From: Candidatus Omnitrophota bacterium
GTDB taxonomy: Bacteria > Omnitrophota > Gorgyraeia > Gygaellales > Profunditerraquicolaceae
Assembly (NCBI GenBank): GCA_029571225.1
Contig: JAKPTF010000049.1
Location: 1-32,098, forward strand
Direction of reading: 5' to 3'
Length of the DNA: 32,098 nt
Shown here piece after piece: positions 18,668-28,808 of this stretch; the stretch's first letter is position 1; each line of letters starts with the position of its first letter. The position numbers and the translations under genes were made by a program. A model generated the notes under the pieces. It had not been told where the DNA came from. It made no database searches and worked only from the letters and a program-made list of their open reading frames with translations.

Positions 18668-19624
18668 ATGGAACGAAAGATAAAGATACGCAGCACCGGC
18701 CAGGCGCAGTCGCTCTTCGGCCTGCACGACGAGAATATCAAGGATATCGCCCGCCAGTTCAAGGTGAAGATCACGCTGCGGGGCGAGTTTCTCAAAATTT
18801 CCGGCAGCCGTGATAATATCGGCCGCTGTGAAGAGTTTATCACATCGCTTTTAAACGATATCGATTCAGGATCCGACGCCCCGTACCAGCGCCCTGATTA
18901 CAGCAGGGTCAAGGAGCATAAAGGCGCGGGCCGAAAACGCTCAAGCCAGACATCTTCGGCGTTCTCCCGGCCGATGCGGCCGCAGTTGACCAAGGTTATC
19001 GGACCGCGCACTCCGGGACAGCGCGATTATGTCGAGGCGATCAAGAAACACGATATCGTGTTTGGCATCGGGCCGGCGGGCACGGGCAAGACCTACCTTG
19101 CCATGGCCTGCGCTGTCGAGGCATTGAGAAATCAGGAGGTCCGCAGGATCATCCTGACCAGGCCTGCGATCGAGGCAGGGGAGTCCCTGGGGTACCTGCC
19201 GGGCGACATGTATGAGAAGATCTCCCCGTACCTGCGGCCGCTCTATGACGCGCTGTACGACATGATGGAGGCGGAGCGCATCGAGAAATACATCGAAACA
19301 GGAATTATCGAGGTCGCGCCCCTGGCGTATATGCGGGGCAGGACCCTCAACGACGCGTTCATCGTGCTGGATGAAGCGCAGAATTCGACCATCGAACAGA
19401 TGAAGATGTTCCTGACGCGCCTGGGTTTCGATTCCAAGGCGGTCATCACCGGCGATATCACGCAGAGTGACCTTCCCGACGGCAAGCCCGCGGGGCTTCT
19501 CCAGGCGATGGACGTGCTCAAGGATATCGAGGGCATCAAGTTCATCCTGTTCAGCGGTTCGGACGTAGTCAGGCATGAACTTGTCCAGCAGATCATCAAA
19601 GCGTATGAAAAGAATAATCGATAG
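18668..19624 (+). CDS. phoH: PhoH-family ATPase
   Basis: A 318-residue PhoH/YbeZ-type protein. A KH-like N-terminal region (about 1-75) precedes an AAA-like ATPase core with Walker [12 protein letters not shown] and Walker [10 protein letters not shown]. It also contains [18 protein letters not shown] and [10 protein letters not shown], which define the family. PhoH proteins act as RNA-related ATPases and sit beside ybeY in many genomes; here ybeY follows after one gene. No ribosome binding site is clear before ATG 18668, but the KH-like start fits the family. The gene order phoH, 7TM-HD, ybeY is a common one and supports a shared rRNA or 30S quality-control role for the outer two. Confidence 0.95.
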
Positions 19625-19631
19625 AAAAAAG

Positions 19632-20981
19632 ATGACGAATTTCGACCTGTTCGTCAGCCGCGCGGCGGGCTCCGTCAGGTATGCCTCGTATGTCGCCGGG
19701 ACGGCGGCCACCGTCCTGTGCGGCTGGATCCTGGGCGTCAACCTGGTCGTGCCGGTTCTGCTGGTTTCTCTGGGGCTGCTGCTGCAGGCCATGCATCGGT
19801 CCAAGGACCTCAAGGCTTACCGCATGCTGTACCTGGTCTTTTTGTACGTCATCGTGATGACAGCCACCTATATGATCAGGGCGTACAAGGCGCCGATCTT
19901 CCTGACGCCGTTCTCCGTCCTTGCGCTTTTATCCGTGATGCTGTTTAACGATCTTGTCGTCGCTTTCGTCTTGACGGTCGCCGGCGCCGTAACCGCAGCC
20001 GCGATAAACGCAAACGACCTTTATATGGGCATGCTGTTCTTGACCAGCGGCATTGCCGCCGCGCTGCTTGCCAACGGCGCGCGCAGGCGCAACGAGGTCA
20101 TCCGTGCAGGCGTCATCGTCGGAGTCCTCCAGGCCGCGACCGGGGTTATCCTGACGAACTTCCGTTTTTTCGAGCCGATGCAATACGTAATCCTGTTCGC
20201 CAACGGCGCTGCCTGCGGCATCATCGTCCTGGGCATCCTGCCCGTGTTCGAGTTCCTGTTTCACAGGGTTACCAACATCAGCCTGCTTGAGATGGCGGAT
20301 TTCAACCATCCCCTGCTTCACCGGCTCATGCTCGAGGCTCCGGGCACCTATCACCACAGCCTCATCGTGGGGAATCTCTCCGAGGCGGCGTGCAGCGCGA
20401 TAGGGGCAAATTCGCTGCTGGCGCGCATCGGCGCGTACTATCATGACGTGGGCAAGCTCGCCAAACCCGAATATTTCAGCGAGAACCAGGACCTTGCGGT
20501 CAACAAGCACGATACGCTCTCGCCGACCATCAGCAAACTGGTGATCATGAATCATATCAAAGAGGGGATAGACCTTGCCCGACAGTATCACCTCAACGCC
20601 AGCATCATCGATTTTATCCAGTCCCATCACGGAACGTCGCTCGTGTATTATTTTTACCGCCGCGCCCTCGAGCGGGTCGAGGACACGCAGGAAGTCCCCG
20701 AAGAGGGTTTCCGGTATCCCGGCCCCAAGCCCAGGACCAAGGAGATCGCGGTGGTTTTGCTTGCGGATTCAGTCGAGGCGGCGACGCGCAGCATGAAGAG
20801 CCCGTCTCCCGACGGCATCCGGGAACTCGTGCACAAGATCATCAACAATAAGTTCATCGACGGCCAGCTCGACGATTGCGACCTCACCCTCAGGGACCTC
20901 GAGAAGATCGCACAGGTCTTTATCCATGTGTTGAGCGGCATCTATCACACGCGCATCACCTATCCTGAACAAAAGAAGTGA
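19632..20981 (+). CDS. 7TM-HD phosphohydrolase (PgpH/YqfF type) without the usual ectodomain
   Basis: About 449 residues: roughly seven hydrophobic segments in the first 230 residues, then a cytoplasmic HD domain. HD signatures are TYHHSLIVGNLSEAA, YYHDVGKLAKP, the IQSHHGTSLVYYFY block and LADSVEAATR. PgpH-type proteins of this group hydrolyse cyclic di-AMP. Typical members are near 700 residues because a large extracellular 7TMR-HDED domain follows the first helix; here it is missing. ATG 19632 is preferred because a purine-rich GAAAAAAG precedes it and it starts just after the phoH stop; ATG 19605 or 19575 would overlap phoH. Its stop overlaps ybeY as GTGA. Confidence 0.88.
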   Translation: MTNFDLFVSRAAGSVRYASYVAGTAATVLCGWILGVNLVVPVLLVSLGLLLQAMHRSKDLKAYRMLYLVFLYVIVMTATYMIRAYKAPIFLTPFSVLALLSVMLFNDLVVAFVLTVAGAVTAAAINANDLYMGMLFLTSGIAAALLANGARRRNEVIRAGVIVGVLQAATGVILTNFRFFEPMQYVILFANGAACGIIVLGILPVFEFLFHRVTNISLLEMADFNHPLLHRLMLEAPGTYHHSLIVGNLSEAACSAIGANSLLARIGAYYHDVGKLAKPEYFSENQDLAVNKHDTLSPTISKLVIMNHIKEGIDLARQYHLNASIIDFIQSHHGTSLVYYFYRRALERVEDTQEVPEEGFRYPGPKPRTKEIAVVLLADSVEAATRSMKSPSPDGIRELVHKIINNKFIDGQLDDCDLTLRDLEKIAQVFIHVLSGIYHTRITYPEQKK

Positions 20982-26232: not shown

Positions 26233-27576
26233 ATGAACCAGAACAAGATCGATATCAACAAACCGACACCCAATCCGGTCTTTACGTATTTTTCGGATCT
26301 CATTGACCGCGACATCGTGGATTTCCGCAACGAATTTGTCGGCCAGCTCTACGACATCATCGTCAAGGTCGCCCAGGTTTATCCTCAATCTGCGGGCCTG
26401 ATCGTGCGCAGAGGGTTCCCTAACCGCAAATACGCGCTCGTCAACTGGGAGCATGTCGAAGAGCTCAATCCCCGGGAGATCAAGCTCAAGCTCGAAAAGT
26501 CTTCGATCGTCTTCGCGGAAAAGCACGATAATAAGGAAGAGCTTTCCCTTCGCCGGGATATCCTCGATCAGCAGGTCGTTGACACATACAACCACCGCGT
26601 CATCCGCGTCAACGACATTCATTTTCTGCGCGTCGAGAATGCCCTGACCGTCGCGCACGTCGATATCGGCGCAAGGGGGCTCGTGCGCAGGCTCGGGTTC
26701 GAAAAGTTCCTGGATTTTGCAGTCAGGACATTCAACCCCCACGCGCGCTATCTGCGGCTGGAGCGACTGATTCCCTGGAAGTATATCCAGCCCCTCACCA
26801 TCAATCCCTCGAGCATGACCATCAAGATCAACGTGCCGCAGAAACAATTGACCAATATCCCCGCGGCTGACCTGGGCGAGATCATCCAGGATCTGCCCCT
26901 GCAGGATCAGATCGCGCTTTTCAAGACCCTGGATCTTCCGACCCGCGCCAAGGTGTTCATGAACATAGATTTCAAGACGCAGCAGCAGATGATCGACGAG
27001 CTCGGGTACGCCGAGATCGCCACTATCCTGAACTTCCTGCCGTCCGACGAAGCGACCGATTTCCTCGAGCGTCTGCCGCAGGAATCCACGAAACAGTTCT
27101 TGAGCATCCTGGAGAGCAAACAGGCCAAGAAACTTTCGGAGCTGCTGGGGTATTCGGGGGATTCAGCCGGCGGCCTTATGACAACCGAGTTCCTCGCGTT
27201 TAAAAAAGGCACGGCCATCGCGGAGATCATCAAGGCTATCAGGGAAAAGACGTTCAAGGTCGAACCGGCCCAGTTCGTCTATGTCGTCGATGATGAACAG
27301 CATCTGGTCGCGTCTATCAATTTCAAGAGGCTTATGCTCGCGCCGCCGGATGATCCTGTCGAGAAACACACGTTCCCCAAGACCTATTACGTGAACCTGA
27401 ATTCGAGCGTCAAAGAGGTTGCCTATCTCATGGAGAAATACAAATATTACGCCATCCCCGTCGTGGACGACCATAATGTCTTAAAAGGCATCGTCACGGT
27501 TGACGATGTGCTCAGCCAGGTCATTGCGATCGCCTGGCGAAGGCTCAAGAAAATCAACATTACTCCGAAACAATGA
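26233..27576 (+). CDS. Soluble PRC-barrel / MgtE-N / CBS regulatory protein
   Basis: A 447-residue protein without membrane segments. Two PRC-barrel-like modules come first (about 20-85 and 100-165; FVGQLYDIIVKV, LDQQVVDTYNHRVIRVNDI). A helical MgtE N-terminal domain follows (about 200-310; EIIQDLPLQDQIALFKTLD, FLPSDEATDFLERLP), then the MgtE-like GYSGDSAGGLMTTEF and a CBS pair (about 320-435). In MgtE channels these N and CBS parts sense Mg2+ and gate the pore, but the pore is absent here. The stop overlaps the start of the NRAMP-like transporter by 4 nt. I infer that it senses Mg2+ or another ligand and controls that transporter. It starts 4 nt after apbE. Confidence 0.85.
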   Translation: MNQNKIDINKPTPNPVFTYFSDLIDRDIVDFRNEFVGQLYDIIVKVAQVYPQSAGLIVRRGFPNRKYALVNWEHVEELNPREIKLKLEKSSIVFAEKHDNKEELSLRRDILDQQVVDTYNHRVIRVNDIHFLRVENALTVAHVDIGARGLVRRLGFEKFLDFAVRTFNPHARYLRLERLIPWKYIQPLTINPSSMTIKINVPQKQLTNIPAADLGEIIQDLPLQDQIALFKTLDLPTRAKVFMNIDFKTQQQMIDELGYAEIATILNFLPSDEATDFLERLPQESTKQFLSILESKQAKKLSELLGYSGDSAGGLMTTEFLAFKKGTAIAEIIKAIREKTFKVEPAQFVYVVDDEQHLVASINFKRLMLAPPDDPVEKHTFPKTYYVNLNSSVKEVAYLMEKYKYYAIPVVDDHNVLKGIVTVDDVLSQVIAIAWRRLKKINITPKQ

Positions 27577-28808
27577 GCAAGATCAAGAAATTCTGGCGTG
27601 AAACGGTTATTTTTCTTTCGATCCTGGGGCCGGGACTCATCACCGCCAACGTGGACAACGACGCCGGCGGCATCACCACGTATTCCGTGGCGGGGGCGCA
27701 TTTCGGGTTTTCATTATTGTGGTCGTTCATCCCGATCATCATCGCGCTCATCGTCATCCAGGAGATGTCCAGCCGCATGGCGGTCGTGACCGGCAAAGGC
27801 CTGGCAGACCTTATCCGCGAAGAGTTCGGAGTGAAGGTTACGTTCTATGCGATGCTCGGCCTTATCTATTCGAACATTTTCAATACGATCGCCGAATTCG
27901 CCGGCATCGCGGCAAGCGCGGAGCTCCTGGGGATCAACAAGTTCGTTCTGGTGCCGCTGTCCGCGGTGTTCGTGTGGTTCCTGATCGTCAAGGGCACGTA
28001 TAAGTCAATAGAGAAGATATTTCTTCTGTTCTGTTTCTTTTACGTGGCGTATGTCATCAGCGCTTTCTATACGAGGCCGGATTGGGGCCATGTGGCGCAG
28101 GAGATCATACACCCCAAGATCCCTTGGAGCAGGGAATATCTGATCCTGTTGATCGCCGTTGTCGGCACGACGATAACGCCCTGGATGCAGTTTTACCAGC
28201 AGTCATCGGTCGTCGAAAAAGGCATAAAACTCTCCGATTACAAATACACGAGGCTCGATGTCATTTGCGGGGCGTTTGTGGTCAACATCGTCGCGTTCTT
28301 CATCGTGCTGGTATGCGCAAACACCCTTTTCAAGAATGGAATCCGCGTCGAGACCGCCAGCGACGCGGCGCTGGCACTGCGGCCGCTTGCCGGGGATTAC
28401 AGCTATTATCTGTTCGCCGCCGGCCTCTTCAACGCCTCGCTGTTTGCCGCGTGCATCCTGCCGCTGTCGACCGCCTATTGCGTGTGCGAAGGCATGGGCT
28501 GGGAGCTGGGATTGAACAAGAAGTTCAGGGAGGCGCCTCAATTTTATGCGCTTTATACCGCGATCATCGCCATCTCTGCGGTCGTGGTCCTTGTGCCGAA
28601 CATACCGCTGGTGCCTTTGATGATCAGCGCTCAGACAAAGAACGGCATCCTTCTGCCGTTCGTGCTTATATTCATGCTGCTTCTGGTGAACAACAAGCGC
28701 CTTATGGGCGAATACACCAACTCGCGCCTTTATAATATCATCGCCGTCACGGTCGTCGTGTTCATGATCCTGCTGTCGGCGATCCTGCTATTGACATATT
28801 ATTTCTAA
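27573..28808 (+). CDS. NRAMP-related divalent metal transporter with non-canonical metal site
   Basis: A 411-residue polytopic protein (about 11 hydrophobic segments) of the NRAMP superfamily. In helix 1 the canonical DPGN is replaced by DNDAGG (residues 28-33, after ILGPGLITANV). In helix 6 the canonical MPH is replaced by TPW (T202, P203, W204 in GTTITPWMQFY), removing the methionine that favours Mn2+ and Fe2+. Similar losses are known in NRAMP-related magnesium transporters, which move Mg2+. Together with the MgtE-type regulator overlapping it by 4 nt, Mg2+ uptake is a better guess than Mn2+. panB starts 17 nt later, with no functional tie evident. Confidence 0.85.
   Translation: MSKIKKFWRETVIFLSILGPGLITANVDNDAGGITTYSVAGAHFGFSLLWSFIPIIIALIVIQEMSSRMAVVTGKGLADLIREEFGVKVTFYAMLGLIYSNIFNTIAEFAGIAASAELLGINKFVLVPLSAVFVWFLIVKGTYKSIEKIFLLFCFFYVAYVISAFYTRPDWGHVAQEIIHPKIPWSREYLILLIAVVGTTITPWMQFYQQSSVVEKGIKLSDYKYTRLDVICGAFVVNIVAFFIVLVCANTLFKNGIRVETASDAALALRPLAGDYSYYLFAAGLFNASLFAACILPLSTAYCVCEGMGWELGLNKKFREAPQFYALYTAIIAISAVVVLVPNIPLVPLMISAQTKNGILLPFVLIFMLLLVNNKRLMGEYTNSRLYNIIAVTVVVFMILLSAILLLTYYF

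Follow-up and report, generated by a model that had tools for sequence, protein, structure and literature searches.

What does a soluble protein with the gating domains of the Mg2+ channel MgtE do next to a transporter of an unrelated fold? The question is raised by two genes of Candidatus Omnitrophota bacterium (assembly GCA_029571225.1, contig JAKPTF010000049.1), analyzed in a stretch of 32,098 nt (positions 1 to 32,098 of the forward strand), hereafter the window. The first gene (26,233..27,576, + strand) encodes, by its ORF and Pfam matches, a soluble PRC-MgtE_N-CBS protein of 447 aa, termed here the NRMT sensor or sensor. The second (27,573..28,808, +) encodes an NRAMP-related magnesium transporter (NRMT) of 411 aa, recognized by phmmer match to EleNRMT (7qia). 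The stop codon of the sensor overlaps the transporter start in an ATGA (27,573..27,576, +), a 4-base overlap shared with 17 of 48 Omnitrophota pairs. The initial annotation, made from the sequence alone, had described this overlap, the three kinds of module in a soluble protein, and a transporter of the NRAMP superfamily without DPGN and without the MPH of helix 6. These points were borne out: both ORFs are real, the first lacks a pore domain, and the second matches Pfam Nramp at 1.6e-104. Its main proposal, a two-gene Mg2+ uptake system with an MgtE-like sensor, stood only in part, as described below.

The identity of the transporter was examined by homology and by residue alignment. EleNRMT was the best phmmer match (E = 2.3e-116), far ahead of the next-best PDB chain (4e-25), so the transporter was placed in the NRMT clade, which was named in 2014 and whose structure was solved in 2022 (PMC8806188). 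The helix-1 metal motif is D30-A-G-G33 (27,660..27,671, +), aligned as NDAGG with D30 as the conserved metal Asp; EleNRMT has D55...G58 and canonical Nramps D-P-G-N here. The helix-6 motif is T199-T-I-T202-P-W204 (28,167..28,184, +; T224...A227-P-W229 in EleNRMT), where canonical Nramps have A..MPH. With neither motif present, a canonical Nramp or MntH was excluded, and the residues aligned with EleNRMT likewise exclude a canonical Met/Asp/Asn metal site. Identical positions were D30/D55, G33/G58, E108/E133, T199/T224, P203, W204/W229 and Q354/Q379, and the only metal-site difference from EleNRMT (Ramanadane et al., 2022, PMC8806188) lies at the Met position, T202 for A227. The His positions of helix 6b are replaced in both proteins (W204 and Q209 in the window NRMT, W229 and N234 in EleNRMT). 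All 47 close Omnitrophota relatives agree with the window NRMT in keeping the helix-1 Asp and in having Gly for the DPGN Asn, and they share the main metal-site set, one of them having unread letters at two Thr positions. The A227 position is Ala in 46 of these 47, and Thr occurs there in 13 of 26 paired Bacillota NRMTs (TTITPW in 11, TTITPY in 2). T224 is conserved in every readable Omnitrophota NRMT. EleNRMT carries Mg2+ and Mn2+ but not Ca2+, is uncoupled from H+, and needs T224 for Mg2+ (PMC8806188); the MgtE discussed in that paper is MgtE itself, and no partner gene is described. By its residues, the window transporter is an ordinary NRMT, a putative Mg2+ transporter without the His residues of H+ coupling. 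Other groups related to Nramp also have changed metal motifs and lack an MgtE-N partner, with GPGT (L179, L182, L184, L185, L188), DAPS (L199, L201, L202) or GPAT (L236-L238).

The sensor was then compared with MgtE. Its closest solved relatives are the cytosolic domains of MgtE, by sequence (best 5e-29) and by fold (Foldseek, 1.5e-20). Pfam detected MgtE_N at residues 210-308 (1.6e-22) and CBS at residues 385-429 (1.1e-13). There are two CBS modules, the first being too divergent for Pfam in the window copy. PRC was matched at residues 19-78 (7.7e-4, 19.9 bits), below the cut-off of 21.2 here and above it in several homologues. The MgtE pore domain (PF01769) was not detected in the sensor, and no 19-residue window of the protein has a Kyte-Doolittle mean above 1.6. 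A structure model of low overall confidence (pLDDT 65.8, pTM 0.34) was used for the N, CBS and C-helix parts only. Taken together, the sensor starts with a PRC-barrel-like domain (residues ~15-95; 26,275..26,517, +) that carries the Pfam match and is beta-rich in the model, followed by a second PRC-like domain (residues ~103-200; 26,539..26,832, +), poorly modeled and recognized by hhalign with the first (E = 5e-5, probability 67%). The N-terminal extension is thus probably a tandem PRC doublet. The MgtE N domain (residues ~206-308; 26,848..27,156, +), supported by Pfam and by Foldseek to MgtE, contains the invariant D272 and D276 (27,046..27,060, +), equivalent to D91 (Mg4) and D95 (Mg6) of Thermus thermophilus MgtE. 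The CBS pair (residues ~313-430; 27,169..27,522, +; Pfam, Foldseek) includes D425, equivalent to D247, the partner of D91 at Mg4. By alignment and model, a short basic C-terminal helix (residues 423-440; 27,499..27,552, +), ending in SQVIAIAWRRLKK, replaces the plug helix of MgtE.

The densest invariant polar residues of the sensor are in the second PRC-like domain (D112, Q114, D117, R125, N127, D128, R153 and W182, in 72-73 sensors), and they also hold in Chloroflexota and Desulfobacterota. The PRC region, the N-terminal ~190 residues, is present in the sensors and absent from the ordinary MgtEs compared, the Thermogemmatispora type excepted. In one Bacillota locus it is split off as its own ORF (L181:1118-1717), overlapping in another frame the MgtE_N-CBS ORF (1614-2417); a partner reported as split in Clostridium acetobutylicum is similar. 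Full-length MgtEs of Thermogemmatispora (L012-L014) share the PRC-MgtE_N-CBS layout, with 29-30% identity over nearly the whole sensor; unlike the sensor, they have the pore in the same chain (665 aa, e.g., L013:5989-7986) and no adjacent NRMT gene. Such a PRC-MgtE may be an ancestor-like or a parallel architecture.

Residue roles in MgtE were taken from the T. thermophilus protein (PMC5882242; cytosolic domain 2yvy, 2zy9), with which the sensor shares the N domain, the CBS pair and the Mg4/Mg6 ligands. D91 and D247 (Mg4) and D95 (Mg6) were kept in all 73 readable sensors from two phyla (D425, the counterpart of D247, in 74/74). Only 2 of 103 N-domain columns were fully invariant among these 73 sensors, and both are Mg4/Mg6 ligands (D272 and D276); given three known N-domain ligands, two random invariant columns would both be ligands with a chance of about 6e-4. 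Across the gating sites Mg2-Mg7, the window sensor keeps Mg4 (D91/D247) and Mg6 (D95) and has lost the residues of Mg2, Mg3, Mg5 and Mg7. The Omnitrophota form in general lacks most residues of Mg5 and Mg7. E59, D226 and D250, not kept in the window sensor, are mostly lost in Omnitrophota, some sensors retaining Glu at 250; at position 59, D/E is retained in Bacillota sensors. In place of the plug-helix ligands E258 and D259 the sensors have other residues, mostly R/K among Omnitrophota and R in the window sensor, while D/E stands at 259 in 22/22 full-length MgtE controls from Omnitrophota. The retained Mg4/Mg6 ligands fit Mg2+ sensing by the sensor, but given the loss of the plug-helix ligands and of most Mg5/Mg7 residues its output cannot work exactly as that of MgtE. 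The positions contacting the ribose and adenine of ATP in MgtE are changed in Omnitrophota sensors, and MgtE-like ATP sensing is therefore not claimed.

Among the Chloroflexota and Desulfobacterota sensors, D95 was kept in 21/21, and the D91/D247 pair was intact in 9, lost in 9 and mixed in 3. This joint change fits a shared metal site, with most losses falling in related genomes. In a group sampled from Desulfobacterota (L216-L218, L220, L221, L230-L232), both Mg4 aspartates are replaced by Ser/Asn and D95 is kept. A divergent arrangement, type B (L091-L095, Omnitrophota), has the NRMT gene first and a sensor without D91 (Gly) and without the plug-equivalent tail, and a similar reversed pair was seen in another phylum (L223).

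To what extent are the two genes linked? The Omnitrophota survey covered 193 genomes, its loci coming mostly from metagenome-assembled genomes; loci of Bacillota, Chloroflexota and Desulfobacterota were sampled by Nramp score, and gene starts were assigned mechanically. A neighboring MgtE_N gene on the same strand was present at 45/45 NRMT-type genes of Omnitrophota (40 upstream; 5 downstream, the type B loci) and at 0/6 canonical Nramps. In the Bacillota loci examined, an MgtE_N gene lay directly upstream of 26/26 close NRMTs, defined by the signatures D[AP][GST]G plus TT[IV][AT]P[WY], and of 0/52 DPGN-type genes. For the two phyla, pairing thus follows the loss of the DPGN Asn and of the helix-6 Met (71/71 NRMTs versus 0/58 canonical genes); for the Met, this had been suggested as a check. 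One Bacillota gene of low score (L200) has an NRMT-like signature and no MgtE_N neighbor. The pairing is looser in Chloroflexota and Desulfobacterota than in Omnitrophota and Bacillota: a same-strand sensor was found at 19/29 NRMTs and at 0/8 canonical genes, and two more loci of this sample (L204 and L233) have a convergent sensor alongside the NRMT. Ortholog pairs throughout Omnitrophota and in other phyla exclude a pairing confined to a single genome, indicating that the window pair is not due to chance. No natural sensor-NRMT fusion was found in the samples of the four phyla; a long NRMT frame at L204, examined as a possible fusion, was an upstream ORF extension. An M-box riboswitch precedes 17/20 Bacillota pairs and 0/40 Omnitrophota loci, and the only Rfam match in the window is a tRNA.

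The distribution of other Mg2+ transporters was also compared. The MgtE pore domain occurs in 2/45 Omnitrophota genomes with an NRMT and in 91/148 without (Fisher p = 1e-12, relatedness ignored), and within the window's own family in 1/15 with versus 10/18 without (p = 0.004). CorA, on the other hand, is unrelated to NRMT presence (14/45 versus 58/148, p = 0.38). The sensor-NRMT pair thus largely replaces pore-bearing MgtE in Omnitrophota. In the window's genome, whose assembly is 88% complete, neither the MgtE pore nor CorA gave a match. An MgtA-type P-type Mg2+ ATPase is encoded outside the window (G000 contig C82:86256-88772; TIGR01524, 1066 bits), so the pair may not be the only Mg2+ route of this genome.

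Sensor and NRMT distance matrices were only moderately correlated (r = 0.57 overall, 0.47 in Omnitrophota), which led to the finding of transporter exchange. In the NRMT tree, L004, L009 and L088 of the window family, together with L081-L083, L089-L090 and L084-L087, make up a clade that has strong support and groups with Clostridia-type NRMTs, a label that rests on M-box operons and similarity, the genomes being Bacillota. The sensors at most of these loci, in contrast, are intermixed in their tree with those from the same genus or family found beside the resident NRMT type (support 100 for L083 with L059, 98 for L082 with L078, 99 for L089 with L079 and 98 for L090 with L073). Constraints grouping each family's NRMTs were rejected (AU p 2e-7 to 1e-38), as were those grouping the sensors of exchanged loci (p = 2e-45; smallest group 0.002); these p values are descriptive, since the groups were chosen after the trees had been seen. 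In related loci with collinear flanks, sensors are 71-81% identical and NRMTs only 52-53%; for L059 versus L083 the values are 81% for the sensor, 52% for the NRMT and 79% for downstream DNA. Conversely, the Bacillota locus L172 shares 70% NRMT identity with L083 but only 30% sensor identity. The four locus pairs L059/L083, L079/L089, L073/L090 and L078/L082, of the same family and mostly the same genus, have near-identical organization with NRMTs from two clades.

The conflict between the trees, together with these identities, indicates that the transporter was swapped for a Clostridia-like NRMT under the resident sensor at least four times, within families. Possible routes are replacement by recombination, or duplication with differential loss, although the surveyed genomes carry one NRMT-type gene each. 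Chimeric metagenome-assembled genomes were rejected as the cause: in several independent genomes, the swapped gene is located within a contig and its flanks are collinear. The C-terminal tail of the sensor keeps the resident pattern in L004, L009 and L088 despite the exchanged NRMT, and is therefore unlikely to be a contact specific to the transporter.

Neither the pairing nor the main hypothesis is new, as both were described by Shin et al. (2014, PMC4072509). That paper reports an NRMT with a linked MgtE-N-like gene in the C. acetobutylicum Ca_c0685 operon and in Acidobacterium capsulatum (Acp2976-Acp2977), and proposes cytoplasmic feedback or chaperoning for the partner, whose role was left open. 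The gene pair, the NRMT clade and usually the gene order are the same as here; the window differs in its Omnitrophota host, in having no M-box, which there precedes only part of the NRMT-linked partner group, and in Thr for Ala at the helix-6 Met position. Its accessible text has no mention of PRC barrels, and neither the ligand pattern nor the transporter exchange was met there. Among the later NRAMP papers found, none takes up the role of the partner, and the searches returned no paper combining PRC-barrel, MgtE and Nramp. The strict linkage, the replacement of MgtE, the retention of Mg4/Mg6 ligands with loss of plug ligands, and the repeated exchange are new in this survey; the linkage, the retained residues and the exchange were not found described in the literature searched.

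We favor, with a probability of about 60%, the reading that the sensor docks on the NRMT and regulates it in response to Mg2+, the two forming a Mg2+ import unit. This reading builds directly on the genes and their domains, the transporter identity, the strict linkage, the conserved ligands, the replacement of MgtE and the exchange; we infer that the sensor binds Mg2+ and docks, which way the control runs, and what the PRC region does. The NRMT would be an NRAMP-fold carrier with a Mg2+-type site and without the His residues linked to H+ coupling, and the sensor a detached regulator with the cytosolic gating module of MgtE. When cytosolic Mg2+ is ample, the ion would join D272 and D276 of the N domain to D425 of the CBS pair, closing the module as at Mg4/Mg6 of MgtE. 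The closed sensor, held at the cytosolic face of the NRMT most likely through the conserved PRC region, would then lower NRMT activity and uptake. The M-box upstream of Bacillota pairs was counted in favor, as a Mg2+ link for the unit. Of the two-gene system first proposed, the pore-less MgtE module, the tight operon and the fit of the Mg4/Mg6 ligands to Mg2+ sensing stand, but the plug-helix ligands and the ATP contacts speak against a simple transfer of MgtE gating. Against the favored reading also stand the roughly one third of sampled Chloroflexota and Desulfobacterota NRMTs without an adjacent same-strand sensor, the lack of natural fusions in the samples, the Mg4 aspartates lost in the Desulfobacterota-sampled group, the lack of M-boxes in Omnitrophota, the loss of E258/D259 and most Mg5/Mg7 residues, and the tail that is unchanged on exchange. 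In PMC4072509, moreover, Mg2+ import by the C. acetobutylicum NRMTs did not require the partner, and no effect of the A. capsulatum partner was visible: its co-expression did not improve rescue by a transporter that behaved mainly as a Mn2+ importer.

A more specific form of the regulator reading, which we put forward tentatively and at rather less than even odds, is that the sensor is a portable trans-acting Mg2+ regulator in a fixed chromosomal slot, where the transporter under its control has repeatedly given way to horizontally acquired NRMTs of only ~52% identity. Because the sensor stays while NRMTs are exchanged, it would act through a surface common to divergent NRMTs. Exchangeability suggests such an interface on shared surfaces; looser coupling fits equally, and for this reason two rivals, a chaperone and a regulator of another target, were kept. 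The MgtE-like protein could be an assembly factor or metal chaperone that stabilizes, inserts, loads or unloads the NRMT without Mg2+ gating, an alternative already named by Shin et al. (PMC4072509). It agrees with the loss of the plug output and with the densest invariance lying outside the Mg2+ sites, in the second PRC-like domain; but that Mg4/Mg6 ligands were specifically retained, and that D91 and D247 are lost together, argues that a metal-bridged switch matters. Since C. acetobutylicum NRMTs work in Bacillus subtilis without the partner (same paper), the partner is not strictly needed for assembly, and we regard this role as unlikely. That the sensor mainly regulates another target, such as a P-type Mg2+ ATPase, and is merely co-transcribed with the NRMT would agree with the strong MgtA-type match in the genome, with the tolerance of very different NRMTs, and with sensor-NRMT contact being a proposal. 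Across four phyla the linkage is to NRMTs, with none to the canonical Nramps examined; this, and a sensor gene that remains beside the NRMT slot through the exchanges, make it very improbable.

The metal itself may also be questioned. The pair could handle Mn2+ or mixed divalent metals, the module sensing that metal and not Mg2+: EleNRMT carries Mn2+ as well as Mg2+ (PMC8806188), and with the partner-associated A. capsulatum NRMT rescue was full for Mn2+ import but, for Mg2+ import, confined to low-millimolar Mg2+ (PMC4072509). Nevertheless, all readable Omnitrophota NRMTs have the T224 that EleNRMT requires for Mg2+, the pair substitutes for MgtE in genomes of Omnitrophota, and M-box riboswitches precede Bacillota pairs, so that a Mn2+ or mixed-metal system is quite unlikely. 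Finally, the sensor, as MgtE minus its pore, might be a functionless, decaying remnant. This is contradicted by the residues invariant across two phyla; nearly every pair also has its reading frames intact, the PRC extension is missing from those ordinary Omnitrophota MgtEs that were compared, and the reading is scarcely credible.

If the regulator reading is true, the gating domain of a channel can be detached and made to regulate, as a soluble protein, a carrier unrelated to that channel. In the portable form of this reading, one sensory module would serve membrane proteins of two unrelated folds, the MgtE channel in cis and a LeuT-fold carrier in trans. For the role left open in 2014, the survey yields three named residues, pairs of related loci in which different transporters stand beside the same sensor, and the PRC region as a candidate dock. 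Elsewhere in the window (19,575-20,981), a 7TM-HD (PgpH-like) protein is encoded, possibly a cyclic-di-AMP phosphodiesterase.
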